Source of the DNA: Ruminococcaceae bacterium YAD3003
GTDB lineage: Bacteria > Bacillota > Clostridia > Saccharofermentanales > Saccharofermentanaceae
Direction of reading: 5' to 3'
Length of the DNA: 64,000 nucleotides
Assembly (NCBI GenBank): GCA_900107185.1
Contig: FNPA01000006.1
Location: forward strand, 62,001 to 126,000
Shown here: piece by piece, positions 7,983 to 61,367 of the stretch
How positions within the stretch are numbered: position 1 is the first letter of the stretch
Layout: each line of letters begins with the position of its first letter
Program-made: the position numbers and the translations under genes
The notes under the pieces: model-generated
Told to the model about the DNA's origin: nothing
The model's input: only the letters and a program-made list of their open reading frames with translations
Databases searched by the model: none

Positions 7983-10900
7983 TTGTTGAGGTGCATTATG
8001 GACGGCAGTAACTCAAAAAGGATTACATTCGACGAGATTGCTCAGGCTCTCGCGAAAGACTATGAAAGTATTTATGTAATTGATTCAAATGATGACAGTT
8101 ACGTTGAGTACATAACCGAAGGTGAAGAAAAGTCTCTTGTCATCCGTTCTTCAGGAGATGACTTTTATTCTGACACCATTCATAATTGCCGTTTGATGGT
8201 TTATCCCGATGATCAGGAACAGTTTCTTGCTTCTTTCAGAAAAGAGGCTGTAACTGAAGTTTTGAAAAACGGCAAATCTTTCACTCTCAATTACAGACTC
8301 GTGATCGACGGCAAGCCTTTGCACTATTTCCTCAAGACGATTAAGGGAGCAGATAACAAGGTTATTATCGGTGTGCAGAATATCGATGAGCAGAAAAGAA
8401 AAGAAATCGCTTCTGAGAAACAGATGCTCACATACAGCCGCATTGCAGGTGCACTGGCGAGCCGTTATGAGGTAATTTACTACGTAAACATCAACAGCAA
8501 CAAATACACAACATACAGTTCCAGTGATGTTTATGCCAGGCTCGGTACTCCGAAGCATGGAAAGGATTTCTTTGCCGACAGTATTGAAGACGTCAAGAAA
8601 TTTATTTACAAAGAAGACGTTAATTACGTATTGAATGGGCTGGATAAAAAGACACTCCTGGCTAATATGCGTGAGAGCGGCACCGTTGTTCTGACTTACA
8701 GACAGCAACTGGGTGATGATGTAAGGTATGTTTCACTGAATGCAGTAGTTCCTAAAAACGACCCGGCGCACATTGTAATTGGTGTTCTGAATGTCGATGC
8801 TCAAATGAAGCGCGAACAGTCGATTATGGAACAGAGCGAACTGTTCAACCATGTTGCAATGGCATTGGCTTCCAGATATGAAGTTATTTACCGCGTTAAT
8901 ATCATAACCAACGAATATTACGAGTTCAGTACGAGTGAAAAATATTCCAAGCTCGAAGTGGGCAGCAGGGGTTCGGACTTCTTTGCGGATTCACAGCGTA
9001 ACATGAAGCGTGATATCTATGAAGAAGACTATGAGATGATGGCCAAGGCTATCAATAAGGAACATATCCTTAAACAGCTTGAGCACATGAATAAAATCTA
9101 TCTCAATTACAGACTGAACCTCGACGGACGTCCGCAGTATGTTTCCCTCGTAATCATGCGCCTCAGCACAGATTCGGATTACATCATTGTGGCTCTTGAG
9201 AATACTGATGAAGCTAAGAGAAGAGAAATCGAATTCGAGGCCAAGATCGGTTCAGCCATTGATATAGCTAACAAGGATACGCTGACAGGCGTAAAGAATA
9301 AGCATGCCTATGTAACTGCGGAAGCGCATCTTAATGAGCAGATCGATGCAGAAACTGACGGGTTGGAATTTGCGATTGCTGTATGTGATATTAACGGACT
9401 TAAAGAAGTTAATGACTTACAGGGTCACAGTGCCGGTGACAAGTATATCAGGGATGCATGCACGGTAATATGTGAGGTCTTCGATCACAGTCCTGTTTAC
9501 CGCATTGGCGGAGATGAGTTCGTTGTCATTTTAAGAGGTCACGATTACGAGAACAGATTAGACCTCGTAAAGCATTTTTATAATCTTCAGGTTGAGCACA
9601 GACATAAGGGTCTGGTTACGATCGCATATGGAATGTCGGAGTTTGATCCCGACAAGGATCTTACTGTCCAGGATGTTTTCGAGCGTGCTGACAAATCCAT
9701 GTACGAGGAAAAGGCCAGATTTAAGAACCAGCCGATCAATAATGAGGTTGAGGCGATTGAGAGTTATTCATTTGTCAGATTTTATGAACTCTACGAACAG
9801 CTCCTCGCGGCAATGACCAATTTCGAAGGTTTTGATATCGGACTCATCCAGCAGCAATTAACTAAGATCGGTCTTATGTTCAGACTGAGTAAGGGTGTCG
9901 TGAAGGTATACCGTAATGCCAAGGAAGAAGAACTCGGATTAGGTGACACGTATATTCCTTTTGATAAAGGAGAAGAGGGTGTTGAAATCCTTCGCATCAA
10001 GGCAGTAACGAGTGTTATGTCAGGTGCTACATGCATGGTCTATATGGCTGAGGATGAAGAACCTCTGAGTCCTGAAGAACGTGATAAAGTTGAACTCGTA
10101 ATGAGAACAGTGGTAAGTTTTGTCAGCCGCAACAGATTAAAGGACATCGTATATGATCTGGCATATTTCGATGACAGCGGATACCCCAACTTGAGAAGCC
10201 TTAACCGGGTATTGGATAACATAGTAAAAACCAATGCGTTCGAAAACAAGATGGCAGTCCGTTATAACCTGAGGCACTTCTCGCTGATCAACCAGGAATT
10301 CGGAAGAGAAACCGGCGATAAGATAATCAAAAAGCATTATGATACGCTTAAAGAGATCCTGGGTGAAGACGGATTCGTTGCCAGATTGGGCGGCGATAAC
10401 TTTGTTGCCATTGGTTCCATAGACAAAGTAGGTGAAGTTGCTGACTATCTGTTCGAAGCGAATATCAGAATAGATGATTCCAATGTTGTAAAAGTTCCGT
10501 GCAGCGCGGGTGTTTTTGAAGTTCCTGAAGGTTATACCGCAGCTGACCTCGGTGATATCATGGGTAAGATCATCAATGCTTACCGCGTGGCGCAAAACGG
10601 TGGCGGAAGTCATATAGTTTACTATTCAGATGAGCTCATGATGACAAAGGAGAAATTCGCCTGGGTTCAGCAAAAGCTTTCTGATGCACTCGCAAATGAG
10701 GAGTTTGTTCCTTATTATCAGCCTAAGGTAGATATATATACAGGCAGGATAATCGGAGGAGAAGCTCTCTGCAGATGGTTCCATAAAGACCAGGTCTATC
10801 AACCGAGTGATTTTATCCCTGCGCTGGAAAAGACAAGTGATATATGTAAACTTGACCTCTATATGCTCGAACAGGTTTGTCGTAATCAGAGAGCATGGCT

Positions 10901-11441
10901 CGATGGCGGCGAGGACCGTAAGCTCGTTCCGATGTCTATAAACTTCTCAAGGAAGCACATCATGAATGTAGAGATAGCTGATAACATTGAGAGAATTATC
11001 GATAAGTATCAGATTCCTCACGATGCGATTGAAATTGAATTTACTGAGACAACAAATGAGATTGAATTTAATGATCTTAAGCACGTAGTCTGCAGTCTTC
11101 TCGAGAAGGGTATTATGTCTTCTGTAGATGATTTCGGTATAGGATTCTCATCTTTGAATCTGTTAAGAGAGATTCCCTGGAAGACCATAAAGATCGACAA
11201 GAGTTTCGTTCCCGAAGAGTCTGACCCCATTGACGGTGATAAATGCAAAATGTTCCGCAGCGTAGTAGCTATGTCAAAGAGTCTTGGATTTGATTGTCTG
11301 GCAGAAGGCGTTGAGACTGAGTATCAGATACAGTTCCTCAGAGACAGCGGCTGCAATTATGTTCAGGGATATTACTACGACAAACCGCTGCCCAAGGAAG
11401 AGTTCGAAGCAAGACTCGTTACCAAGAAATACGATAAGTGA
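7983..11441 (+). CDS. Giant GGDEF/EAL cyclic di-GMP protein with triplicated N-terminal sensor module
   Basis: This 1152-residue protein has three tandem repeats of about 130 residues (about 10-140, 155-290, 293-420), each opening with a variant of ALASRYEVIY and closing with a variant of VIGVQNIDEQKR. They look like PAS-type sensors. A GGDEF domain follows with an intact GGDEF at 509-513, then about 150 residues that may be GAF-like, then a second degenerate GGDEF domain whose motif is GGDNF (803-807), and finally an EAL phosphodiesterase domain with EAL at 927-929 and the conserved INFSR, EFTET, VDDFGIGFSS, KIDKSF, AEGVET and QGYYYDKPL motifs. Both synthesis and hydrolysis look possible. 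No membrane helix or signal peptide is visible, so it is predicted to be cytosolic. A GAGGTG ribosome site precedes the ATG. Confidence 0.92.
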   Translation: MLRCIMDGSNSKRITFDEIAQALAKDYESIYVIDSNDDSYVEYITEGEEKSLVIRSSGDDFYSDTIHNCRLMVYPDDQEQFLASFRKEAVTEVLKNGKSFTLNYRLVIDGKPLHYFLKTIKGADNKVIIGVQNIDEQKRKEIASEKQMLTYSRIAGALASRYEVIYYVNINSNKYTTYSSSDVYARLGTPKHGKDFFADSIEDVKKFIYKEDVNYVLNGLDKKTLLANMRESGTVVLTYRQQLGDDVRYVSLNAVVPKNDPAHIVIGVLNVDAQMKREQSIMEQSELFNHVAMALASRYEVIYRVNIITNEYYEFSTSEKYSKLEVGSRGSDFFADSQRNMKRDIYEEDYEMMAKAINKEHILKQLEHMNKIYLNYRLNLDGRPQYVSLVIMRLSTDSDYIIVALENTDEAKRREIEFEAKIGSAIDIANKDTLTGVKNKHAYVTAEAHLNEQIDAETDGLEFAIAVCDINGLKEVNDLQGHSAGDKYIRDACTVICEVFDHSPVYRIGGDEFVVILRGHDYENRLDLVKHFYNLQVEHRHKGLVTIAYGMSEFDPDKDLTVQDVFERADKSMYEEKARFKNQPINNEVEAIESYSFVRFYELYEQLLAAMTNFEGFDIGLIQQQLTKIGLMFRLSKGVVKVYRNAKEEELGLGDTYIPFDKGEEGVEILRIKAVTSVMSGATCMVYMAEDEEPLSPEERDKVELVMRTVVSFVSRNRLKDIVYDLAYFDDSGYPNLRSLNRVLDNIVKTNAFENKMAVRYNLRHFSLINQEFGRETGDKIIKKHYDTLKEILGEDGFVARLGGDNFVAIGSIDKVGEVADYLFEANIRIDDSNVVKVPCSAGVFEVPEGYTAADLGDIMGKIINAYRVAQNGGGSHIVYYSDELMMTKEKFAWVQQKLSDALANEEFVPYYQPKVDIYTGRIIGGEALCRWFHKDQVYQPSDFIPALEKTSDICKLDLYMLEQVCRNQRAWLDGGEDRKLVPMSINFSRKHIMNVEIADNIERIIDKYQIPHDAIEIEFTETTNEIEFNDLKHVVCSLLEKGIMSSVDDFGIGFSSLNLLREIPWKTIKIDKSFVPEESDPIDGDKCKMFRSVVAMSKSLGFDCLAEGVETEYQIQFLRDSGCNYVQGYYYDKPLPKEEFEARLVTKKYDK

Positions 11442-11469
11442 CAGCTAATTAACAATTTTTTCTGAGCGG

Positions 11470-11521
11470 AAACCCCAAAGTAAAGGGCGTATAATAGTGC
11501 CATAACTTTCCGGAGGGGTTT
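11470..11521 (+). promoter_or_regulatory. Probable -10 element and inverted repeat upstream of the GH9 gene
   Basis: A perfect TATAAT lies at 11490-11495, 27 bases before the cellulase start, without a recognisable -35 box. It is flanked by a perfect 7-base inverted repeat, AAACCCC (11470-11476) and GGGGTTT (11515-11521), whose right arm overlaps the end of the ribosome binding site. In read-through RNA from the upstream gene the site could be masked, but RNA started at this promoter would lack the left arm. Confidence 0.4.
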
Positions 11522-14065
11522 ATGAAAAGATTAATCAGACCGGTAGCATTGGTTCTTGCCGGAGCTATGTTATTGACGGCTTGCAATAAAGTAACAGATC
11601 AGGAAACATCAGAATCCATCGTCGGGTCAGACGGTACTTCATCAGAGACTGAAGCTTCATCACAGGGTTCATTTAACGGCGTATCAGGCTCATCTCATTC
11701 CACATCTGATCTAACCGAATTCGGACGCGGATATGAAGGCGTTGAAGGAACGGGTAATTTTAACTATGGTGAAGCGCTCCAGAAATCCCTTTTATTCTAT
11801 GAACTCCAGAGAAGCGGCGCGCTCCCTGAAGAGACCAGATGCAACTGGAGAGGAGATTCCGGTCTTACTGACGGTGCTGATAACAATGTTGATCTTACCG
11901 GTGGATGGTACGATGCCGGCGATCACGTTAAGTTCAATCTCCCTATGGCATATACGGCTGCCATGCTCAGTTGGTCAGTTTATGAGGACCGGGAGGCATA
12001 CGAGCAGAGCGGCCAGTTGGAATATGCTCTGGGTGACATCAAGTGGGTTACAGACTATCTCATTAAGTGCCATCCTGAAGATGAAGTTTTCTACTATCAG
12101 GTAGGTGACGGCGGTGCAGATCACTCATGGTGGGGACCTTGTGAGGTCATGACCATGAACAGACCTTCCTATAAGGTTACAAAGGATAATCCGGGATCAG
12201 CTGTTGTAGGTGAAGCTGCTGCTGCTCTGGCTGCGGCTGCGATTGTTTTCGAGAAGACAGATAAGGAATATGCGGACCTCTGCTTAGAGCATGCAAAGAG
12301 TCTTTATGCATTTGCAGATTCTACGAGAAGTGATTCAGGTTATACGGCCGCTAACGGATTCTATAATTCATGGAGCGGATTCTACGATGAGCTCTCATGG
12401 GCAGGATGCTGGCTCTATCTGGCAACAGATGAGGCCGGATATCTCGATAATGCGAAGTCATGTTTTACACAGGCAGGTCACGATTTTAACTGGTCTCTCT
12501 GCTGGGACGATGTTCATATCGGTGCCGCTGTAATGCTCGCAAAGATCACTGGCGATAAGGCATACAAGGATGAGGTTCAGAAGCATCTTGATTTCTGGTC
12601 ATGCGGAACATCGGACGGAGAGAGAATCACTTATTCTCCAAAGGGTCTGGCATGGCTCGATTCATGGGGTTCATTAAGATATGCGACAACTACAGCTTTC
12701 GTAGCGACAGTATACAGCAGATGGGAAGGCTGCCCTGCTGACAAGGTATCGGTTTATTGGGATTTTGCGGTTTCCCAGGCTGACTATGCTCTCGGTTCTT
12801 CCGGCAGATCTTTTGTGTGCGGATTTGGTGAGAATTCACCTGAACATCCTCACCACAGAACGAGCCAGGGTTCTTACTGCGATAACATGAATGAACCCGG
12901 TGAAGCCAGACATACGCTCTTTGGCGCGTTGGTAGGCGGTCCTGATGCATCTGATAACTATACGGATACAGTTACCGACTATTGCATGAATGAGGTTGCA
13001 TGCGATTACAATGCAGGATTCACAGGCCTTCTGGCAGCACTGTATTCCAAGTATCACGGACAGACACTGATCGATTTCGGTGCAGTAGAAGAAGTTCCCG
13101 CTGACGAATACAGCTGCGAGAGCAGTCTCAACGTTCAGGGTGACGATTTTGCTGAAATAAAGGCATTCATTTATAACAAGACAGCATGGCCTGCGAGAAC
13201 CGCAGAGAATCTGGAATTCAGATATTTTGTTGACCTGTCAGAGATCTATGAGGCAGGCGGAGATGCTTCTGGTGTCAGCATTACAACAAATTACATGCAG
13301 TCAGGAAGAGTAGACGGACTTAAGGTATGGAATGAAGAGAACCATATCTATTATCTGTCTGTTGTTTTCGATGATAACGGATTAAGACCTGCAGGACAGT
13401 CACAGTATAAGTCTGAGATCCAGGTAAGAATGGTCAGCCCTAACGGTACATGGGACAACGGAAATGACTATTCTTTTAATTCAGGTGCCGTATTGCTCGA
13501 GAACGATAAAGTGGTTTTCGGTGAACTGCCCGATGAAGAAGGACAGGGTTCAGGTACTACAGCAGTAGGCGGTGGCTGCAGCTCCGGTTCAGGTTCTTCT
13601 GGTAACAACCAGAACAGCGGTTCTTCAACAGGCGGCAGCGGCCAGGCAGCTGTTGGTGACCTGAGCGTCAAGATGACTTATAACGACAATTCTTCTTCAG
13701 CCAATGCGATCGCCGGAACATTGGATATCGTTAACAACGGTTCTGATTCAGTTGATCTGACGAACATGACGATTAAGTATTATTTCACAGATGACGGCTC
13801 GATGGCTTTCGATTGTTATCATGCGGCAATCAGTTCTTCATCAGGACAGTACACTGCATTGACGGATAATGTCGGAGGTGCGTTTGAATCCTGTTCGGGT
13901 GAAGACCGCAACACATGCCTTACGATTACGGTCGGCACTGGCACGCTCGCTCCGGGCGATACTCTTACGATCAGTTTCAGCTGTCACAGGTCTGACTGGC
14001 AGAATATGAATCTGGCAGACGACTGGTCACACAAGAGTGTTGATAACATTGAAATCAATATCTGA
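11522..14065 (+). CDS. GH9 cellulase with two CBM3 modules, predicted lipoprotein
   Basis: 847 residues. A lipoprotein signal ends in LLTAC (lipidated Cys21), followed by a Ser/Thr/Glu linker. The GH9 catalytic domain runs from about 78 to 510: [10 protein letters not shown] holds the catalytic base region (Asp131/Asp134), [12 protein letters not shown] is the family His/Arg motif, and [11 protein letters not shown] holds the acid Glu491. A CBM3c-like module (about 530-665) follows, then a Gly/Ser linker, then a C-terminal CBM3-type module (about 715-847). GH9 plus CBM3c is the arrangement of processive endoglucanases. There is no dockerin, so anchoring is by lipid rather than a cellulosome. 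The epimerase gene follows after 12 bases. Confidence 0.95.
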
Positions 14066-14077
14066 GAGAGTATTAAT

Positions 14078-14701
14078 ATGCCGGTTTGTGTTTCAACAGA
14101 AGTAATGCGTAACAGCGACAGATGGACCATAGAGAATCTTGTTCCATCCAAAGAGCTGATGGCGAGAGCCGGCAAGGCTATCTTTGAGCAGGCTCAATGG
14201 AAAGCTCCTGTCGGAATCATTTGCGGCAAGGGAAATAATGCGGGCGACGGCTTTGTTGTTGCTTCGCTGTTAAAAGATGCCGGTATCGGTTGTGAGATCG
14301 TCCTGCTGTTTGAAGAATCATTCTCGGAAGATGGTAAGTATTATTTCGACAAGTGCTTAGAGAAGGGGATACCCGTAGTTACAGATGGTGATTACAGCAG
14401 GTATAACACTATCCTCGACTGCATTTTCGGAACGGGATTTAAGGGCGAAGTAAGAGAGCCCGCCAAAAGCGCGATCGGGAAGATCAATAATTCAGGCGCT
14501 TACGTCGTCTGTGCCGATATCAACAGCGGCCTTAACGGCGATACGGGACTCGGTGACCTGTATGTAAGATCCGATCTTACGGTATCGATCGGAACCTATA
14601 AATACGGACATTTTCTGGGAAATGCCGGTAAAGCTATGAAGAATAAAGTGAACTGCGATATCGGTATCAGGATAACCGGTGAGACAAAAGTGTTGTCATA
14701 A
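14078..14701 (+). CDS. nnrE: NAD(P)H-hydrate epimerase (YjeF N-terminal domain only)
   Basis: A 207-residue YjeF_N domain protein. GKGNNAGDGFVVASLL near residue 50 and ILDCIFGTGFKGEV near 110 are the family signatures, and DINSGLNGDTG carries the catalytic Asp region. The enzyme epimerises damaged NAD(P)H hydrates so that a dehydratase can restore them. Many bacteria fuse it to the dehydratase; here it is the epimerase alone and no dehydratase is nearby. It starts 12 bases after the cellulase stop with only a weak ribosome site (GAGAG), suggesting co-transcription without an evident functional link. Confidence 0.85.
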   Translation: MPVCVSTEVMRNSDRWTIENLVPSKELMARAGKAIFEQAQWKAPVGIICGKGNNAGDGFVVASLLKDAGIGCEIVLLFEESFSEDGKYYFDKCLEKGIPVVTDGDYSRYNTILDCIFGTGFKGEVREPAKSAIGKINNSGAYVVCADINSGLNGDTGLGDLYVRSDLTVSIGTYKYGHFLGNAGKAMKNKVNCDIGIRITGETKVLS

Positions 14702-14725
14702 ATTCCTGCTGATCGAAAACATTCA

Positions 14726-14754
14726 TTGACGAACATGGGCGTATTATGTATAAT
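14726..14754 (+). promoter_or_regulatory. Promoter of the polyamine operon
   Basis: TTGACG (14726-14731), a 17-base spacer, then a perfect TATAAT (14749-14754). Predicted transcription start near 14761, giving an untranslated leader of about 370 nt before speA. Confidence 0.8.
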
Positions 14755-14760
14755 TCCCCA

Positions 14761-15132
14761 TGTTTTTAAACAAAATATATCAAGTATAGACGATGTTAAT
14801 CAGAGTCTTAGGTGATTTTACGGACCGCTCCAACGGAGCTGAAGGCCATACGGACAGCCGGGTCCACTGCCGATGATCGGATCTTCCGGTCTATTGATTG
14901 AGTTAAAAGCTCAGTTTTATAAGTTGGTTACTTTATAACCGAAATGCGTGACTTGCGCAGACTTGTGAAATGGTCAATAAGAGTAGTAAAAGTAGTATTG
15001 CTATATAGACTCTATATGTTGATATTCGACATATTGGTGTACCGCCTATACCTGTATCTCGGATAATCAGATAATATTGTAACCATACGCAAGTTGTGTA
15101 ACACAGCTTGCGTTTTTGTTTTGAGGTGGAAA
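14761..15132 (+). ncRNA. Structured 5' leader of speA, candidate riboswitch or attenuator
   Basis: About 370 nt between the promoter and the arginine decarboxylase start, with no convincing gene. Small helices visible by eye: GGACC/GGTCC (14822-14826 with 14861-14866) enclosing a GCTCC-AAC-GGAGC hairpin and a GGC/GCC hairpin; CCGA-TGA-TCGG; GGTTA-CTTTA-TAACC; TGCG/CGCA at 14945-14959; ATATGTTG/CGACATAT; GGTGTA/TATACC; TATCT/AGATA. The leader ends in a 12-bp intrinsic terminator. Bases 14945-14957 can pair over 13 consecutive positions (several G-U) with 15088-15100, the left arm of that terminator, so an antiterminator is available. I do not recognise a known class: no T-box core, lysine, SAM, guanidine or cyclic-di-GMP signature. 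Ligand unknown; a polyamine or arginine/agmatine is the natural guess. Confidence 0.65.
15087..15122 (+). terminator. Intrinsic terminator directly before speA
   Basis: A 12-bp stem with one G-U pair (ACGCAAGTTGTG 15087-15098, CACAGCTTGCGT 15102-15113), TAA loop, then TTTTTGTTTT. The ribosome site GAGGTGG begins one base later, so this is an attenuator in the leader rather than the end of the upstream gene. Confidence 0.85.
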
Positions 15133-16587
15133 ATGGACAAAATTGAATTGGATCAGACAAGGGCACCAATCTACGAAGCCCTAGAGCGATTCCGCGAAAT
15201 GCGTGTCGTTCCGTTTGATGTACCGGGACACAAGCACGGTAAGGGTAATCCTGAGCTCACTGCATTCCTCGGTGAGAAATGTGTCGGTGTCGATGTAAAC
15301 AGCATGAAGCCTCTGGATAACCTTTGTCATCCTATTTCGGTTATCCGTGATGCTGAGCTCCTCGCTGCAGATGCATTTGGTGCGAGCCATGCATTCCTTA
15401 TGGTTGGAGGAACAACGAGCTCAGTGCAGAGCATGGTCCTCTCATGCTGCAAGCATGGAGATAAGATCATCCTCCCGCGTAACGTGCACAGAAGCGTTAT
15501 TAACTCTCTTGTTCTTTGCGGAGCGATTCCCGTATATGTCAATCCTGAGGTTGACTGCCATTTGGGAATCTCTTTGGGTATGAGCCGTGAACAGGTTAAG
15601 AAGGCGATAGAAGAGAACCCTGATGCTGTTGCAGTTCTGGTAAACAATCCGACTTATTACGGTATCTGCAGTGATATCCGCGCGATCGTTAAGATGGCTC
15701 ACGATGCAGGCATGCTCTGCCTCGCTGATGAAGCGCACGGAACACACTTCTATTTCGGTGATAACATGCCGATCTCTGCGATGAAGGCAGGAGCTGATAT
15801 GGCTGCCGTTTCAATGCATAAGAGCGGCGGAAGTCTTACACAGTCCAGTCTGTTGCTCATCGGTGAGAACGTAAGCGAGAGACACGTAAGGCAGATCATT
15901 AATCTTACGCAGACTACATCAGGCAGTTATCTGCTCATGTCAAGCCTTGATATCAGCAGAAGAAACCTCGCGCTGAGAGGCAAGGAAGTTTTCCGTAAAG
16001 TTATCGGGATGGCTGATTATGCGAGAGAAGAGATCAATGCGATCGGCGGTTACTATGCATATGGCCGTGAGATGATCAACGGAGATTCGATCTTCGATTT
16101 CGATCCTACAAAGCTCAGTGTTCACACAAGAGATATCGGTCTTGCAGGAATCGAGGTTTACGACATCTTAAGAGACGAATACGATATCCAGATCGAGTTC
16201 GGTGATATCGGAAATATCCTCGCATACCTTTCGATCGGTGACAGAATGCAGGAACTCGAGAGACTCGTAAGTGCTCTGGCAGAGATCCGCAGAAGATACA
16301 AGAAAGACCCTGCAGGACTCCTTAGTCAGGAATATATCGATCCTGAAGTTGTATGCAGTCCGCAGAGCGCATTCTATTCAAACAAGAAGAGTATTCCGAT
16401 CAAGGAGAGCGCAGGTCATGTCTGCAGCGAATTCGTTATGTGCTATCCGCCGGGAATACCGATCCTCGCGCCCGGCGAAAGGATTACGGAAGGAATCCTC
16501 GAGTACATCGAGTATGCAAAGGCTAAGGGATGTTCAATGACAGGTCCTGAGGATCCTGATATCAATTACATTAACGTTTTGGAGTAA
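15133..16587 (+). CDS. speA: Arginine decarboxylase (aminotransferase-fold Orn/Lys/Arg decarboxylase)
   Basis: 485 residues from ATG 15133, chosen because GAGGTGG lies four bases upstream; an in-frame earlier ATG at 15094 falls inside the terminator stem and is rejected. FDVPGHKHG, the ADEAHGTH motif and the PLP-binding lysine in SMHKSGGSLTQSS (Lys230) identify the short, Bacillus-type group of Orn/Lys/Arg decarboxylases. The enzyme would convert arginine to agmatine. Arginine rather than lysine is inferred because an agmatinase-family gene lies two genes downstream. It heads a five-gene polyamine operon behind a terminator-containing leader, so its level is probably set by attenuation. Confidence 0.9.
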   Translation: MDKIELDQTRAPIYEALERFREMRVVPFDVPGHKHGKGNPELTAFLGEKCVGVDVNSMKPLDNLCHPISVIRDAELLAADAFGASHAFLMVGGTTSSVQSMVLSCCKHGDKIILPRNVHRSVINSLVLCGAIPVYVNPEVDCHLGISLGMSREQVKKAIEENPDAVAVLVNNPTYYGICSDIRAIVKMAHDAGMLCLADEAHGTHFYFGDNMPISAMKAGADMAAVSMHKSGGSLTQSSLLLIGENVSERHVRQIINLTQTTSGSYLLMSSLDISRRNLALRGKEVFRKVIGMADYAREEINAIGGYYAYGREMINGDSIFDFDPTKLSVHTRDIGLAGIEVYDILRDEYDIQIEFGDIGNILAYLSIGDRMQELERLVSALAEIRRRYKKDPAGLLSQEYIDPEVVCSPQSAFYSNKKSIPIKESAGHVCSEFVMCYPPGIPILAPGERITEGILEYIEYAKAKGCSMTGPEDPDINYINVLE

Positions 16588-16598
16588 GGAGGCGGCTA

Positions 16599-17453
16599 AT
16601 GAATCTGTGGTTTAGTGAATATCATGCACCTGACGTAAGACACAGCATGCGTGTCACAAGACATCTTTATTCGAGCAAGAGCGACTATCAGCAGATCGAT
16701 ATTTTCGATACTCCTGAATTTGGTAAGGTTCTGGCTCTCGATGGGAATGTCATGCTGACAGAACGAGATGAATTCATCTACGACGAGATGATCACACACA
16801 TTCCCATGTCTGTTCATCCCAATGTACAGGACGTTCTCGTTATCGGCGCAGGAGACGGCGGTGTCGTAAAGGAACTTACCAGATATGAGAGCGTTAAGCG
16901 TATCGATCTCGTTGAGATGGATGGCCAGGTTATTGAGGCATGCCGCACATATCTTCCTGAGAACGCATGCAAGCTCGATGATTCACGTGTGCATATTTAC
17001 TTCGATAACGCACTCCGTTTTATCAGACGTTCAAGTGATGAATACGATCTGATCATCGTTGACTCAACTGATCCGTTCGGACCTTCTGAAGGATATTTCA
17101 CTAGAGAGTTCTATGGCATCTGCTATAACGCTCTTCGTGATGACGGAATCATGGTCAACCAGCAGGGCAGCCCGTTCTATAAGCACGATGCAGAAGCAAT
17201 GCAGAGAAGCCACAAGAGGATCGTAAATACATTCCCGATCAGCCGTGTATATCAGGCGCATATTCCGACATACGCAGCTGGTTACTGGCTGTTCGGTTTT
17301 GCGAGCAAGAAGTATCACCCCGTAGATGATTTCGATGAAGAGAGATGGAAGAGCCTGCACCTCAGCACGAAGTACTATACAACGAAGCTGCACAGAGGTT
17401 CATTCTATCTGCCGGCATATCTTGAGAAGATGCTTATGGAGGTTGAGTCGTGA
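16599..17453 (+). CDS. speE: Spermidine synthase family aminopropyltransferase
   Basis: 284 residues, normal for SpeE. The SAM-type nucleotide fold shows GAGDGG (83-88), and VDSTDPFGPSEGYF holds the catalytic Asp155 and substrate-binding Asp158. The family transfers an aminopropyl group from decarboxylated S-adenosylmethionine to putrescine, or in some bacteria to agmatine. No speD (SAM decarboxylase) is present here although the operon also encodes the alternative carboxyspermidine route, so the donor and acceptor are open questions. It has a strong AAGGAGG site and its stop overlaps the GTG start of the next gene. Confidence 0.88.
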   Translation: MNLWFSEYHAPDVRHSMRVTRHLYSSKSDYQQIDIFDTPEFGKVLALDGNVMLTERDEFIYDEMITHIPMSVHPNVQDVLVIGAGDGGVVKELTRYESVKRIDLVEMDGQVIEACRTYLPENACKLDDSRVHIYFDNALRFIRRSSDEYDLIIVDSTDPFGPSEGYFTREFYGICYNALRDDGIMVNQQGSPFYKHDAEAMQRSHKRIVNTFPISRVYQAHIPTYAAGYWLFGFASKKYHPVDDFDEERWKSLHLSTKYYTTKLHRGSFYLPAYLEKMLMEVES

Positions 17454-18304
17454 AAAAGAATGTAGAGACATTTATCGGCTGTGACAGCGGATACGAGGAA
17501 TCCGGTATCGTATTATTCGGTGCTCCTTTTGATTCAACTACGAGCTTCCGCCCCGGTGCCAGATTCGGAAGTGCCGCTATCCGTCACGAGAGTTTCGGAA
17601 TTGAAACTTACAGTCCTTATCAGGACAAGGATCTCCTGGATAAGAAGGTATTCGACTGCGGTGATCTCGAACTGTGCTTTGGTTCAGCAGAATCAGCTCT
17701 CGCAGATATTGAAGAGCAGACCCGTACTATCTTAAATGACGGTAAGCTCCCCATCATGATCGGCGGCGAACACCTGGTTACATTGGGCGCGGTCAGAGCA
17801 GTTTTCGAGAAGTATCCGGATCTTCAGATCGTTCATTTCGATGCGCATGCTGATCTCCGTGACGATTATCTCGGTGTAAAACTCAGCCACGCATGTGTAC
17901 TCAGAAGATGTTATGAATTAGCAGGTGACGGAAAGATCCATCAGTTCTGTATCAGGAGCGGAGAGCGTGATGAATTTGCTTTCGCTATGGAACATACAGA
18001 TATGCATAAGTTCAGTTTCGACGGATTAGAAGAAGTGTGTGCCGAATTGAGTAAGAATAACACACCTGTATATTTCACGATCGATCTGGACTGTCTCGAT
18101 CCTTCTGTATTCTGCGGAACAGGAACACCTGAAGCAGGCGGTGTGAATTTTATGGAATTACTGTCAGCAATTCTTACGGTCAGCAAGACAAATATCGTAG
18201 GAGCAGACATCAACGAACTCGCACCCATGCTGGATTCCAGCGGTGCATCAACAGCAGTGGCTTGTAAGACATTAAGGGAATTGATCCTTTCTATCAATAA
18301 ATAA
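17450..18304 (+). CDS. speB: Agmatinase-family ureohydrolase
   Basis: 284 residues, GTG start overlapping the speE stop by four bases. The binuclear manganese site is complete: GGEH (His108), DAHAD (Asp131, His133, Asp135) and IDLDCLD (Asp212, Asp214). The family hydrolyses agmatine to putrescine and urea; relatives act on N-aminopropylagmatine or other guanidines. The arginine decarboxylase in the same operon supports agmatine or an agmatine derivative as substrate. Which one decides whether spermidine is made through free putrescine or through an aminopropylated agmatine. Confidence 0.88.
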   Translation: MKKNVETFIGCDSGYEESGIVLFGAPFDSTTSFRPGARFGSAAIRHESFGIETYSPYQDKDLLDKKVFDCGDLELCFGSAESALADIEEQTRTILNDGKLPIMIGGEHLVTLGAVRAVFEKYPDLQIVHFDAHADLRDDYLGVKLSHACVLRRCYELAGDGKIHQFCIRSGERDEFAFAMEHTDMHKFSFDGLEEVCAELSKNNTPVYFTIDLDCLDPSVFCGTGTPEAGGVNFMELLSAILTVSKTNIVGADINELAPMLDSSGASTAVACKTLRELILSINK

Positions 18305-18322: not shown

Positions 18323-19582
18323 ATGAGCAGAGTATTAGTTATCGGATGCGGCGGTGTCGCAAATGTTGCAATCAGAAAGTGCTGTCAGGCAGATGACGTT
18401 TTTACAGAACTTTGCATCGCGAGCCGTACTAAGTCAAAGTGCGATGCACTCGCAGAAGCGTTGAAGGGTAAGACAAAGACTGTAGTTACAACTGCACAGG
18501 TAAATGCAGACAGCGTTGATGAATTAGTTGCGCTTATCAATTCATATAAGCCTGATCTCGTAATGAATATCGCGCTTCCTTATCAGGATCTTACTATCAT
18601 GGATGCATGCCTTATCTGCGGCGTAAACTACATGGATACAGCTAACTATGAGCCTGAGGATACAGATGATCCGGAGTGGCGCAAGATCTATGAGAAGAGA
18701 TGTGAAGAGAAGGGTTTCTCTGCTTACTTCGATTACAGCTGGCAGTGGGCATATAAGGAGAAGTTTGAAAAGGCAGGACTTACTGCGCTCCTTGGCTGCG
18801 GCTTTGATCCCGGAGTAACACAGGCATACTGCGCATACGCAAAGAAGCACGAGTTCGACACTATTGATACGATCGATATTCTTGACTGCAACGGCGGTGA
18901 CCACGGCTATGCTTTCGCAACTAATTTCAACCCTGAAGTAAACCTTCGTGAAGTATCTGCTCCCGGCAGTTACATCGAGAACGGCAAGTGGGTTGAGATT
19001 CCTGCTATGAGCATTAAGAGAGAATACGATTTCGACTGCGTTGGTCAGAAGGATATGTATCTTCTCCATCATGAAGAGCTCGAGTCCCTTGCAGTTAATA
19101 TTCCTGAAGTTAAGAGAATCCGTTTCTTTATGACTTTTGGCCAGAGCTATCTTACACACATGAAGTGTCTTGAGAACGTAGGCATGCTCTCAACAACACC
19201 GATCAACTTCGAAGGCCACGAGATCGTTCCGATCAAGTTCCTGAAGGCGCTTCTTCCTGACCCTGCGAGCCTCGGTCCCCGTACACACGGTAAGACAAAT
19301 ATCGGCTGCATTTTCACAGGTAAGAAGGACGGTCAGGAAAAGACTTACTACATCTACAATGTATGCGATCACCAGGAGTGCTACAAGGAAGTTGAGAGCC
19401 AGGCAATCAGCTACACAACAGGCGTTCCTGCTATGTGCGGTGCAATGATGCTCCTTACAGGCAAGTGGACAGAGAAGGGCGTACACACTGTTGAAGAGTT
19501 CGATCCCGATCCGTTCCTCGATGCACTCGACAAGTACGGTCTCCCCAGAAGCGAGAGCCACAATCCTGTATTGGTAGACTGA
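18323..19582 (+). CDS. Carboxynorspermidine/carboxyspermidine dehydrogenase (saccharopine dehydrogenase-like)
   Basis: 419 residues with an N-terminal NAD(P)-binding fold (VIGCGGVANVA at 5-15) and the saccharopine dehydrogenase-like catalytic domain (GCGFDPGVTQAYCAYA near 162). In the alternative spermidine route it condenses L-aspartate semialdehyde with putrescine (or agmatine) and reduces the Schiff base to a carboxylated polyamine. The identification leans on the next gene, which is a clear carboxynorspermidine decarboxylase, and on the operon context; the two always act in sequence. AAAGGAG lies nine bases before the ATG. Confidence 0.88.
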   Translation: MSRVLVIGCGGVANVAIRKCCQADDVFTELCIASRTKSKCDALAEALKGKTKTVVTTAQVNADSVDELVALINSYKPDLVMNIALPYQDLTIMDACLICGVNYMDTANYEPEDTDDPEWRKIYEKRCEEKGFSAYFDYSWQWAYKEKFEKAGLTALLGCGFDPGVTQAYCAYAKKHEFDTIDTIDILDCNGGDHGYAFATNFNPEVNLREVSAPGSYIENGKWVEIPAMSIKREYDFDCVGQKDMYLLHHEELESLAVNIPEVKRIRFFMTFGQSYLTHMKCLENVGMLSTTPINFEGHEIVPIKFLKALLPDPASLGPRTHGKTNIGCIFTGKKDGQEKTYYIYNVCDHQECYKEVESQAISYTTGVPAMCGAMMLLTGKWTEKGVHTVEEFDPDPFLDALDKYGLPRSESHNPVLVD

Positions 19583-19586
19583 TAAC

Positions 19587-20783
19587 ATGAACGATATTTT
19601 TGATGGACTCACATCTGTTATAAACGGCGGGAACATCAAGGCATTAAAAACACCTTGTTATGTTATCGATGAAAAGAAACTGGTTAAGAATGCAGTAATT
19701 TTGTCTTCTGTGATCTCACATACAGGATGCAAGATCCTGCTCGCTCAAAAAGCCTTTTCCAATTACGATTTCTATCCGCTTATTTCAGGTTTTATTTCAG
19801 GCACCGAAGCGAGCGGTCTTTACGAGGCCCGACTCGGTAAAGAAGAGATGCCTGAAGGTGAGGTCCACGTATTCTGTGCTGCGTACAGAGACGATGAATT
19901 CGACGAGCTTTTGTCCTATGCGGATCACATCGTTTTCAACTCAATTAATCAGCTCAAAAAGTTTGGTGCTGTTGCTAAGCAGCACGGTAAGAGTGTAGGG
20001 CTAAGAATCAACCCTGAATGCTCTACTCAGGAAGGTCACGAGATATATGACCCTTGCGCCGTGGGAAGCCGTTTGGGCGTCACCAGGAACGTATGGGATA
20101 AGGAGATGACTCCTGACCTGTTTGAGCTGTTGGATGGAATTCATTTCCACACTCTCTGCGAACAGGGTTCTGATGCACTCGAGATTACACTTAAAGCAGT
20201 AGAAGAAAAGTTTGGTGATGTTCTTCCCAAGATGAAGTGGATCAATATGGGCGGCGGTCATCACATAACAAAAGAGGATTACGATGTTGAACTGCTCGAA
20301 AGGCTCATTATCTCCGCGAAAGAAAAGTGGGGAGTAGAAGTCTATTTGGAACCCGGAGAAGCAGTTGCTATCAACGCAGGTTACCTTCTTACCAGAGTCC
20401 TTGATGTAGTAGAGAATTCAGATGTTAAGATCGCGATCCTGGATAGCAGTGCTGCATGCCATATGCCGGATGTAATCGAGATGCCGTATACACCGCCTCT
20501 TATGAATGCATGCGCTGATAAGACAAAAGCGTTCCGCTTCAGACTCGCAGGTCCTACATGTTTGTCTGGAGATGTTATCGGTGATTATTCTTTCGACAGT
20601 GAAATTGCAACAGGTGACCTGCTGGTATTCGGTGACATGGCGATATATACGACATGTAAGAACAATACGTTTAACGGTATGCCGCTGCCTGATATCTACA
20701 GTCTTAAACCTGACGGAACGTTTGAGAAACTGACAGACTTCGGGTATAAGGATTTTAAGAACAGATTGGGGAAACCTGAATAA
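19587..20783 (+). CDS. nspC: Carboxynorspermidine/carboxyspermidine decarboxylase
   Basis: 398 residues of the alanine-racemase-fold group IV decarboxylases. The PLP lysine is Lys55 in LLAQKAF; INMGGGHHITKEDYD, EPGEAV, DSSAACHMPDVIEMPY and AGPTCLSGDVIGDYSF are characteristic of NspC rather than of diaminopimelate decarboxylase. It removes the carboxyl group from carboxyspermidine (or carboxyaminopropyl-agmatine), completing the aspartate-semialdehyde route. It starts four bases after the dehydrogenase stop and ends the operon. An inverted-repeat array and a shared terminator with leuS follow. Confidence 0.92.
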   Translation: MNDIFDGLTSVINGGNIKALKTPCYVIDEKKLVKNAVILSSVISHTGCKILLAQKAFSNYDFYPLISGFISGTEASGLYEARLGKEEMPEGEVHVFCAAYRDDEFDELLSYADHIVFNSINQLKKFGAVAKQHGKSVGLRINPECSTQEGHEIYDPCAVGSRLGVTRNVWDKEMTPDLFELLDGIHFHTLCEQGSDALEITLKAVEEKFGDVLPKMKWINMGGGHHITKEDYDVELLERLIISAKEKWGVEVYLEPGEAVAINAGYLLTRVLDVVENSDVKIAILDSSAACHMPDVIEMPYTPPLMNACADKTKAFRFRLAGPTCLSGDVIGDYSFDSEIATGDLLVFGDMAIYTTCKNNTFNGMPLPDIYSLKPDGTFEKLTDFGYKDFKNRLGKPE

Positions 20784-20832
20784 ACGATGTTTTCGAGCGC
20801 CGGTATTCTTAAATCGCAAAAAGAGAAAATTG

Positions 20833-21050
20833 GAATACAAAAAATCGCGGTTTTGTATTCGGAATTCGGCATACTGGAAAAACAGAATACAAAATCTTTG
20901 GAAAATGTATTCTGATTCTCGAAAATCAGGAAATGCGAATACAAAAAACGATGAATTTGTATTCGGAATTTGGTGTTTGAGAAAATAGGAATACAATTCG
21001 AAGATTTTTTGTATTCCATTTCTTCAAATCAACGAAAAGTGAATACAAAA
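20833..21050. repeat. Array A: 52-nt-period inverted repeats with private arm GAATACAAAA
   Basis: Fills the 315-base gap between convergent nspC and leuS. GAATAC arms start at 20833, 20885, 20937, 20989 and 21041, an exact 52-base period. In the first four units a GTATTC arm ends exactly 28 bases from the unit start (20860, 20912, 20964, 21016). Best unit: GAATACAAAA, 8-base loop, TTTTGTATTC. Loops and the 24-base spacers vary, though spacers 1 and 3 resemble each other. The fifth arm runs into the nspC/leuS terminator. Unlike CRISPR repeats, only the arms are conserved. Confidence 0.9.
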
Positions 21051-21076
21051 AGGCTGCCCATTGGACAGCCTCTTTT
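21046..21076. terminator. Bidirectional terminator between nspC and leuS
   Basis: AGGCTGCCC (21051-21059) pairs with GGACAGCCT (21063-21071) with one mismatch. An A-run lies to the left and TCTTTT to the right, so it can serve both convergent genes. Confidence 0.8.
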
Positions 21077-59177: not shown

Positions 59178-61367
59178 ATGGCAGACGGTAAGCAGTGGTA
59201 TAACAGCCCCCAGGATAAGGGAAATAACAGGAACCCAAATGCCAAGCATGTTAATGCTGCAAAGAAGACAGGTAAGCCTATGGGCCAGCCTTCTTCTAAG
59301 CCCGTTGGTAAGCCTGCAGGAAAACCTGTAGGTAAGCCTGCAGGAAAACCTGTAGGAAAACCCTCCGGCAAGCCTGTTGGTATGGCGCAGCCGAACCGTC
59401 CTGTTGCAGGCAAGAAGATTGTAAAGCCTTCCGGTAAGCCCGGTATGAGACCTGATAAGTCCAAGATGCAGGGTCAGAAGCCTGTTAAGACTCAGGGACA
59501 GGTACCCGGCGTAAAGAACGAGAAGAGCATTATCCCCCAGATGAAGCCTGCGGATAAGACTCCTATCCAGGCCAAAAAGCCCGTATCTTCTGCTAATGCT
59601 AAACCCAAGAAGCCTTTGACAAAGGAACAGCAGAAACGCAGGGAACAGGCCAAGATCATGGAGCAGGTCAGACGCAAGGAAGAGGCTAAGCTCCAGGAAC
59701 AGGCAAAGATCGAGAAGAACGAATATAAGCGTAAGAATCCGTCACAGAAGAGTGCTGAGAGCCGTGCGATCAGAAACGGTGTTTTGGGTGCAGTTGCTGT
59801 TGCGGCAGCTTTGTTGGTTCTTGTTTTCGTAGTGCATCACTTATACGACTACATCGCAGAGAAGCCGAATTTCTCATTCGTTACGACAGGTGCCGTTGAG
59901 CATACTATCGGTGCGAGAGCTCTTATCGTAAGAGACGAGGATACGATTCCCGCATCCACTTCAGGTGAGCTCGTAACACAGATTACAGAAGGATCCAGAG
60001 TTGCTAAGGGCCAGGAACTCGCAATCGTAGTTCCTGAAGAGATGAAGTCTGTTGTATCTGATTTGAGAAATGTTCAGTCACAGATCTCAGACGTTCAGCA
60101 GGAGATCATTTTGGCAGGTGACGTTGCCGAGGCTGACATCATTTACAGAAACTATAACAAGAACCTTTCCGCGATCCTCGACTCAGTAAGATTCGATGCG
60201 ATGAACGGAAATCTTAATAACATGTCATCTTACAGCGCTTCTGTAAACGTTATCCTCGATGAGCGTGAAGACGAGATGAGTAAGATCAATTTCGATGACG
60301 AGAGAATATCCGTACTGAGAAGTGACGAGAAGGTATACGAGGCACAGGTCGAGAAATATGCTTCCGTAATCACTGCTCACAGACCGGGTATCGTTTCTTT
60401 CAGACTGGACGGTCAGGAGGATGTTCTCGATTACGGCACATTCCTCACAATGCCTGCGTCTGAGATTAAGAGTTACATTAACAATTCTGTTGGTGCCATT
60501 ACAGCAGACCTGAGCGTCGATGCTGATACGGCCGTTTGCAGAATCTCCCAGAACGAGAGCCAGTATCTTACTGTTTATCTCTCATCCAACGATGCAGCGA
60601 CATCAGACTTCGCTGTAGGAACAACTCATGACATCAACGTGCGTACAGAAGGTATCTCAATCGATAACTGTAAGGTTGTACGTTGTGAGAGTGATTCGAG
60701 CGGAATGCTCATCACGTTTGAAACTTCCAGATACGTAGAAGACCTCCTGGATCTGAGAACGGTTGATATCGAGATCGTTATTACAGAGACAGACGGTATG
60801 AGAGTATCCGTATCCAGCCTCGTTAATACAGAATATGCACCTAAGGGTAATCCCTGCTTCTGCGTTTACATCGCGCCCGGCGCTAATGTGAGCGGAGATG
60901 CCTTTGCAGTTGAATCTCTGTTTAACATTACTGTAGTTCCTAACGTAAAGACTAACGAGGACGGATCTATAGAAGAACAGCAGAATACGGCAGTCGGCGG
61001 CTGCAGGGTAGTCCATTCCGAGTTTATGGAAGACGGTGGCCTCGTTGTCGCATTCTCAACACCTAACGATTATACGAACCTTAAAAAGCTCGAAAGGCTT
61101 TATACCGCAGGATACAAGGTTACATTTGTTGATACTGCAACCGGATTGGGCATCACAACCGAGAAGGTAATCGTATCCGATTATTCCGGTATGGCTTCCG
61201 TATATATGAATAACCAGGGCTTCGTAGAAGAAGTAAGAGTAATCCTCCTCGATAACGACAGAGAATTCGCTATCGTTGATCAGGTAGGTAAATCCTCTGT
61301 TCCTAATCTCGATACAGTTATTATTACTAACCCTAAGACTGTTAAGCCCGGAGATAAGGTCGACTGA
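59178..61367 (+). CDS. HlyD-like membrane protein with long basic GKP-repeat tail, divisome neighbourhood
   Basis: 729 residues. The first 200 are cytoplasmic, strongly basic and low in complexity, with tandem GKPVGKPA repeats at about 43-66 and a charged helical stretch (KEQQKRREQAKIMEQVRRKE). One membrane helix follows (about 203-224). The extracytoplasmic part starts with a lipoyl/HlyD-like hairpin (VRDEDTIPASTSGELVTQIT, then VAKGQELAIVVPEE) and a coiled coil, then beta domains. HlyD-like proteins next to yggS and sepF occur widely in Clostridia, suggesting a role in division or wall synthesis rather than export (inference). yggS starts one base after its stop. Confidence 0.82.
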   Translation: MADGKQWYNSPQDKGNNRNPNAKHVNAAKKTGKPMGQPSSKPVGKPAGKPVGKPAGKPVGKPSGKPVGMAQPNRPVAGKKIVKPSGKPGMRPDKSKMQGQKPVKTQGQVPGVKNEKSIIPQMKPADKTPIQAKKPVSSANAKPKKPLTKEQQKRREQAKIMEQVRRKEEAKLQEQAKIEKNEYKRKNPSQKSAESRAIRNGVLGAVAVAAALLVLVFVVHHLYDYIAEKPNFSFVTTGAVEHTIGARALIVRDEDTIPASTSGELVTQITEGSRVAKGQELAIVVPEEMKSVVSDLRNVQSQISDVQQEIILAGDVAEADIIYRNYNKNLSAILDSVRFDAMNGNLNNMSSYSASVNVILDEREDEMSKINFDDERISVLRSDEKVYEAQVEKYASVITAHRPGIVSFRLDGQEDVLDYGTFLTMPASEIKSYINNSVGAITADLSVDADTAVCRISQNESQYLTVYLSSNDAATSDFAVGTTHDINVRTEGISIDNCKVVRCESDSSGMLITFETSRYVEDLLDLRTVDIEIVITETDGMRVSVSSLVNTEYAPKGNPCFCVYIAPGANVSGDAFAVESLFNITVVPNVKTNEDGSIEEQQNTAVGGCRVVHSEFMEDGGLVVAFSTPNDYTNLKKLERLYTAGYKVTFVDTATGLGITTEKVIVSDYSGMASVYMNNQGFVEEVRVILLDNDREFAIVDQVGKSSVPNLDTVIITNPKTVKPGDKVD
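59307..59354 (+). repeat. 24-bp tandem repeat within the HlyD-like gene
   Basis: Two exact 24-base copies (59307-59330, 59331-59354) beginning GGTAAGCCTGCAGG, with a diverged third, encoding GKPAGKPV. The repeat can change length by slippage without changing frame. Confidence 0.9.

Follow-up and report, generated by a model that had tools for sequence, protein, structure and literature searches.

The window analysed here, a whole stretch of 64,000 nucleotides from contig FNPA01000006.1 of Ruminococcaceae bacterium YAD3003, holds an operon for polyamine synthesis whose first gene is separated from its promoter by a long leader, and this raises the question of what the leader does and to what it responds. 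In our reading, to which we assign a probability of about 0.72, it is a member of a cis-regulatory RNA class of Bacillota, a terminating OFF switch for genes of polyamine synthesis and uptake with spermidine as the most likely ligand.

The elements expected of a transcription unit are all found at the locus, on the forward strand. A sigma-70-type promoter (TTGACG-17-TATAAT, 14726-14754), called near-consensus in a sequence-only reading of this DNA, matches the consensus at 11 of 12 positions and is the best of four promoter-like sites across 14600-15200, where shuffled sequences yield 2.0. The leader measures about 360 nt, and none of 100 dinucleotide shuffles folds as well (z -5.1). The 12-bp intrinsic terminator described in the same reading is located at 15087-15122, where 15087-15098 pairs with 15102-15113 around a 3-nt loop and a T-rich tail reaches 15122, adjoining the ribosome-binding site GAGGTGG read from the sequence at 15123-15129. 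The operon begins with a speA-type Orn/Lys/Arg decarboxylase (15133-16587; PF01276, 4.9e-69), which likely starts at ATG 15133 rather than at TTG 15094 within the terminator, and continues with speE, of the spermidine synthase family (16599-17453; TIGR00417, above cut-off), the agmatinase speB (17450-18304; TIGR01230, above cut-off), a carboxy(nor)spermidine synthase/dehydrogenase-like gene (CASDH, 18323-19582; NF043000, 1.5e-121, under the family cut-off) and nspC, a carboxy(nor)spermidine decarboxylase (19587-20783; TIGR01047, above cut-off).

Several other features were observed in the window. Upstream of the leader, 7983-14701 includes genes for a GGDEF-EAL protein and for a glycosyl hydrolase of family 9 that carries a cellulose-binding domain of family 3. 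A gene for an NAD(P)H-hydrate epimerase also lies there, its stop codon about 25 nt ahead of the leader promoter. Between nspC and a leuS-like gene (20802-21051), five 42-nt copies are spaced at exactly 52 nt, 64 to 74% like the reference copy, with ends close to TGTATTC and GAATACA and a variable middle; such an array of imperfect palindromes is perhaps CRISPR-like. A tandem repeat with the unit CCTGCAGGAAAA and a period of 12 or 24 is present at 59307-59362.

In regard to known RNA families, RF02440 (Streptococcus sRNA SpF59, ldcC RNA) was the sole Rfam family reaching threshold in the window, matching over its full length at 14822-14873 with 62.5 bits against a gathering threshold of 37.2, and it was the only family listed for the leader at E-values up to 5. 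The match corresponds to a three-way junction with a loop pseudoknot, and the junction anticipated at 14822-14866 is indeed formed, with every pair standard, by P2 (14822-14826/14861-14865), P2a (14827-14831/14835-14839) and P2b (14844-14846/14857-14859). Other classes (T-box, lysine, glycine, guanidine, SAM-I-type and the remaining Rfam classes) gave no covariance-model match to leader or core; a match to RF02435 (SpF41) at 14.9 bits, against 52 required, was rejected as noise, and the core alone returned three matches far under gathering, none of them SAM-I and none a credible family. The sequence-only reading had seen no signature of the classes it named, and this stands for T-box, SAM, lysine, glycine and guanidine; the junction, however, does match a known family, RF02440.

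Formally, an Rfam match, which the sequence-only reading had itself set as a refutation, speaks against a new class, but the family is an uncharacterised "sRNA" model of a single optional 5′ domain of 54 nt. Conservation among relatives reaches far past these 54 nt, and the common core sits 3′ of them. Among the matches listed, the SpF59 loop motif was classified by script in 127 assessable relatives, being present in 93, degenerate in 8 and absent in 26; these come from 130 core-anchored loci, of which three were cut short, and two of those scored as absent (L095, L109) may retain degenerate remains.

The relatives were collected with a pattern placed in the 3′ part of the RNA, which was found in at least 118 genome-contig stretches; these do not represent a random sample. 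The first set comprised 149 loci, of which 144 fit the loose pattern (L010, L014, L017, L025 and L029 were left out), and the core was anchored in 130 of them, the other 14 having no P5 anchor. A model built from the core alone (R1) matched 24 of 398 genomes of the phylum, as compared with 18 of 398 for RF02440, all 18 within the 24; among relatives R1 matched 16 of 59 and RF02440 14 of 59, the smaller group once more lying within the larger. The core was present in 38 of 398 genomes from the class to which one Bacilli-like match belongs. Most genomes searched were without it, and the source genome carries a single copy. The matches listed come from many gut Clostridia and also from Paenibacillus and Bacillus relatives, and the RNA occurs in small Bacilli genomes of streptococcal appearance as well. 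The leader, whose presence in relatives had been proposed as a check, does recur ahead of polyamine genes, with covariation. Viral contigs held no exact match of one pattern and BLAST found none in phage records, giving no sign of viral carriage, and a plasmid search returned one Paenibacillus mega-replicon, unannotated at the match. Further searching listed 42 new loci, 40 of them anchored. The two not anchored lie, by inspection, ahead of speD (L172) and beside speA (L212). Eight of the 40 were identical to first-set or dropped loci and were left out (L160, L168, L171, L192, L198, L199, L201 and L202), and all new-locus counts rest on the remaining 32.

The conserved core spans about 140 nt, approximately 14875-15013, the conserved structure ending at 15013. 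It consists of the P4 hairpin (14875-14891); P5 (14892-14898/14973-14979), which encloses P6 (14900-14902/14910-14912), P7 (14926-14930/14936-14940), P8 (14945-14948/14956-14959) and P10, the last formed by AUAAGU (14919-14924) with 14961-14966; and a highly conserved 3′ segment (14980-15013, AGAGUAGUAAAAGUA...GCUAUAUAGACUCU), whose columns are invariant and in which the search pattern itself is located. The TGCG/CGCA hairpin of the sequence-only reading is the one formed by 14945-14948 and 14956-14959, i.e. P8. The 3′ strand of P10 belongs to a conserved ACUUGUG (14961-14967).

Covariation was assessed in two alignments. A1 contains 32 diverse SpF59-positive members from 62 passing length filters, and A2 contains 43 diverse cores out of 108 (mean column identity 62%), near-identical members having been removed from both. 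In A1, 94.5% of the cells of 38 proposed pairs were standard and 18 of the 38 pairs had changes in both partners; shuffles gave 9.1, none of 500 reaching 18, and slid controls gave 4 to 11. Likewise, in A2 90.6% were standard and both partners had changed in 21 of 32 pairs, whereas shuffles gave 9.4, none of 500 reaching 21, and slid controls still gave 6 to 13. Such changes were found in P4 (6 of 6 pairs), P6, P7, P8 and P10 (4 of 6 pairs, 94.6% of cells paired), although P8 was paired in only 66% of cells in A2. The exception among the core helices counted is P5, without any both-side change; neither this helix nor the 3′ segment varies enough for a covariation test. In the SpF59 domain, A1 gave both-side changes in 5 of 5 pairs of P2a, 2 of 3 of P2b and 1 of 5 of P2, and the loop pseudoknot (14851-14853/14870-14872), invariant in 32 of 32 members, is beyond the reach of covariation.

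The 5′ strand of P1 (14811-14816) pairs with 14997-15002 and, although weak and wobble-rich in the source species, the P1 strands fit their own partners far better than permuted ones across loci (z 11.7; reversed control z -0.3). An upstream AGAGUCU (14802-14808), complementary to 15007-15013 and paired in the minimum free energy fold, could form an outer pairing that competes with P11 (14980-14984/15009-15013), a helix that would itself be pseudoknotted with P1. Of 124 upstream regions among the matches listed, 24% contain AGAGTCT, a motif seen in 0.8% of shuffled ones, and the upstream region fits the 13 nt after AGACUCU better with own than with permuted partners (z 7.5; control 1.5). These permutation tests with controls supersede an initial helix test of P1 and the upstream/downstream pairing, in which the excesses were small. 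For P11, a divergent member (L173) has AGAGU and ACUCU altered together, a double change that lends the helix thin support.

As to the genes that follow, among the matches listed the next gene is polyamine-related and on the same strand in all 141 assessable loci of the first set; the other three of the 144 (L065, L069, L135) were too short for a gene call. Within these matches the first gene is an arginine/lysine decarboxylase of the speA/ldc type in 50, the AdoMet decarboxylase speD in 47, CASDH in 25 and the importer gene potA in 19. Since clustering had merged CASDH with agmatinase, first genes were rechecked against single reference proteins, which left the counts unchanged, and representatives were recognized by NCBIfam as speD (TIGR03331), potA (NF043075) and CASDH (NF043000, below cut-off). 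In the six phylum genomes matched by R1 and missed by RF02440 the RNA is followed by speA or speD, and all but one of the 32 new loci were judged polyamine-related (31 of 31: CASDH 19, speA 10, speD 2), the remaining one, L206, having no polyamine gene in reach. The gene speD belongs to the classical spermidine route and CASDH with nspC to the carboxyspermidine route, PotABCD imports spermidine, and speA with agmatinase makes a spermidine precursor; on this established pathway knowledge, spermidine is the product common to the downstream gene kinds.

Spermidine is therefore our best single guess for the ligand. The sequence-only reading had named a polyamine, agmatine or arginine, of which the first survives, spermidine fitting all four gene contexts, whereas arginine and agmatine fit speD, CASDH-first and potA loci badly. 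That the riboswitch senses a different pathway metabolite, be it putrescine, agmatine, arginine, decarboxylated SAM or methylthioadenosine, appears unlikely, even if less so than the other alternatives: agmatine and putrescine are made by speA and agmatinase, and decarboxylated SAM by speD, yet arginine, agmatine and decarboxylated SAM are not products at the 25 CASDH-first and 19 potA-first loci among the matches listed. This argument does not extend to putrescine, which is a less likely but conceivable ligand.

Furthermore, the RNA is regularly followed by a terminator. Among the matches listed, 112 of 138 loci have one scoring at least 25, whereas only 5 of 138 letter-shuffled stretches do; the other 26 loci yielded no good terminator. 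A hairpin of any kind was present in 118 loci, of which 106 reached a score of 25, and 100 of these, being unique, were used for the analysis of the arms. Among these 100 unique terminators of the listed matches, CAAG or CAGG, matching ACUUGUG, occurs in 74 left arms and in one right arm; when the left arm is given its best ungapped helix with the leader, the CUUG of ACUUGUG takes part in 52, and mainly the 3′ side of P8 is used in the other 48. By eye, the 3′ side of P8 rather than ACUUGUG is the partner of the left arm in L033, L044, L051, L074, L100 and L130 (in L100, for example, AAGGUC with GACCUU), the fit in L130 being poor. Complementarity of this part of the leader to the left arm of its own terminator scores 17.94 against 15.46 for permuted partners (z 8.5, 0 of 10,000), a permutation that ignores relatedness, and control pairings with z 3.2 to 3.8 indicate the share contributed by relatedness alone. 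In the new loci a terminator was found in 30 of 32, and among the 20 unique ones, 18 of which have left arms previously unseen, the match lies in the left arm in 19 and in the right arm in none.

In the source species, ACUUGUG can pair with 15088-15094, and because P10 needs the same bases for its 3′ strand (AUAAGU/ACUUGU), aptamer and antiterminator would be mutually exclusive. For an RNA ending at 15101 the aptamer fold (-91.8 kcal/mol) and the antiterminator fold (-92.4 kcal/mol) are nearly equal, and with the full terminator present the terminator is favoured (-107.9 vs -100.9 kcal/mol). Calculated energies by themselves do not settle which state is adopted. The strand 14945-14957, on which the earlier proposal of three exclusive states was built, does pair over 13 positions with 15088-15100, four of them G-U, but the strand occurs in just 1 of 144 first-set loci, the present one, and its pairing is weaker (-87.0 kcal/mol for the RNA to 15101). 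What is conserved as the antiterminator strand is ACUUGUG, joined by the 3′ side of P8; it lies beside that species-particular strand. The wider claim of a polyamine operon under an attenuator with exclusive states is strongly supported by comparison: the fold, the association with one kind of gene, the terminator and the complementary strands recur in the relatives, and the case for an attenuator that works through mutually exclusive pairings appears strong.

In the proposed mechanism, the aptamer core (P4; P5 around P6, P10, P7 and P8; the 3′ segment), closed by P1 and extended in many members by the SpF59 domain, would bind the metabolite, which would keep ACUUGUG in P10. The terminator at 15087-15113 would then form, leaving speA-speE-speB-CASDH-nspC untranscribed. 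At low metabolite levels the left arm of the terminator would instead be paired with ACUUGUG and the 3′ side of P8, and transcription would proceed. A ligand that holds P10 implies the logic of an OFF switch, and this direction, which we infer from the architecture together with feedback logic, goes along with a likely direct binding of the metabolite by the RNA.

Alternatively, a polyamine-responsive or other protein could bind the RNA and choose between terminator and antiterminator. The architecture of such a protein-binding attenuator would look identical, but the larger downstream gene clusters, for proteins of 120 aa and more, include no recurring regulator, and retention of the RNA in distant families and in all four kinds of operon would argue against it, so that we regard it as rather improbable. 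The terminated leader could also be a functional product in its own right, a trans-acting small RNA, as its Rfam and pneumococcal names imply and as suggested by a lung entry and by its listing as a pneumococcal sRNA of 82 or 327 nt. In the available portions of the sources, the srn235/F59 transcript has 327 nt by listed coordinates (PMC12323649), F59 sits between SP0915 and SP0916 (PMC3395615), and a review table carries a "Lung" entry for srn235/F59 (PMC4387999). The 327-nt size would suit a terminated leader just as well. We take SP0916 to be the decarboxylase gene. A role in trans is very unlikely: among the matches listed, the RNA lies immediately upstream of polyamine genes, and in their orientation, at all 141 assessable loci, and the terminator left arm fits the leader. 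These observations suggest instead that what was catalogued in pneumococcus as an "sRNA" is a polyamine-operon leader whose transcription has been terminated. The enterobacterial speF leader encodes a leader peptide. Attenuation by such a uORF, for which control by the Salmonella speF leader is in print (PMC6386406, as far as its available text goes), is hardly credible here, the core being open in 5, 2 and 2 of 130 loci by frame, with no conserved frame, indels not in threes and lengths spread over all three residues modulo 3.

One divergent family (f130) counts against our reading, with its altered 3′ segment and, in most members, a shorter antiterminator pairing. Its nine genomes of 1.8 to 2.5 Mb show weak R1 matches and are probably those of streptococci, judging from their size and a transposase in one locus. 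In the eight leaders read (L204-L211), P1, P4, P5, P6, P10 and a diverged SpF59 domain are kept by eye, and the 3′ segment differs; RF02440 is above threshold in L204 and below it in L207 and L211. In L204, L205 and L206 the leader CAUCUUGU can pair over eight positions with GCAGGAUG, spanning the left arm and loop of the terminator, and in the other leaders of the family the antiterminator match is shorter. In L206 (G809:C53) the speA position beyond the terminator holds another reading frame. This frame resembles an IS200-type transposase, and the switch seems to be cut off from its operon. Very reduced forms were observed ahead of speD in L170 and L172 (around locus position 1500), where most helices upstream of ACUUGUG are missing and little is left beyond P1, ACUUGUGAA and the conserved 3′ segment.

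The earlier label of a candidate new riboswitch is thus borne out as a candidate, by a large conserved RNA devoted to one pathway with terminator/antiterminator complementarity, and needs qualification in that an Rfam model covers the optional domain. In the open-licence literature, a scope outside which most subscription papers fall, the RNA was not found described as a leader element or riboswitch, and a word search of the available text of three surveys (PMC11109978, PMC6429828, PMC7266159) returned none of the sought terms. We regard it as a riboswitch-type device whose fold was not found described in the literature searched and of which only a small optional piece had been catalogued before.

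Among known systems, the odc1 motif, included together with potE in the available part of one survey (PMC8632094), is likewise an RNA ahead of an ornithine decarboxylase gene, but its heading names a uORF, and none is conserved here. The speF RNA motif (PMC11477304) is also a leader of a polyamine decarboxylase gene; by the description available it is alphaproteobacterial, and no Rfam match to it was found in our leader. RF02440, i.e. pneumococcal srn235, F59 or Spd_sr49, is the closest entry in that its 54-nt model matches and its name points to a decarboxylase gene, but it is typed as an sRNA gene, comes without core, terminator and antiterminator, and misses 6 of 24 core-positive phylum genomes. 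Polyamine riboswitches have long been expected and disputed. The class published by Salvail et al. 2023 (PMC10853860) derives, according to the available text, from SAM-I and is rare, its consensus is drawn from 13 representatives, and the authors anticipate more. That class, a SAM-I variant, is a terminator OFF switch ahead of spermidine-synthesis genes and ldcC, and so resembles ours in the direction proposed here and in similar target genes; it differs in its SAM-I four-stem junction fold, as no SAM-I-type Rfam match was found in the leader or in the scanned relatives (a comparison with Rfam models other than the variant's own). The RNA described here supplies a ready sequence set, structure and mechanism for testing, and we lean towards seeing in it a second natural class of spermidine riboswitch, structurally independent of the SAM-I variant and more widespread, with a highly conserved core shared by Clostridia and Bacilli, a detachable accessory domain, and a reach that would extend over the AdoMet-decarboxylase and carboxyspermidine routes as well as import.
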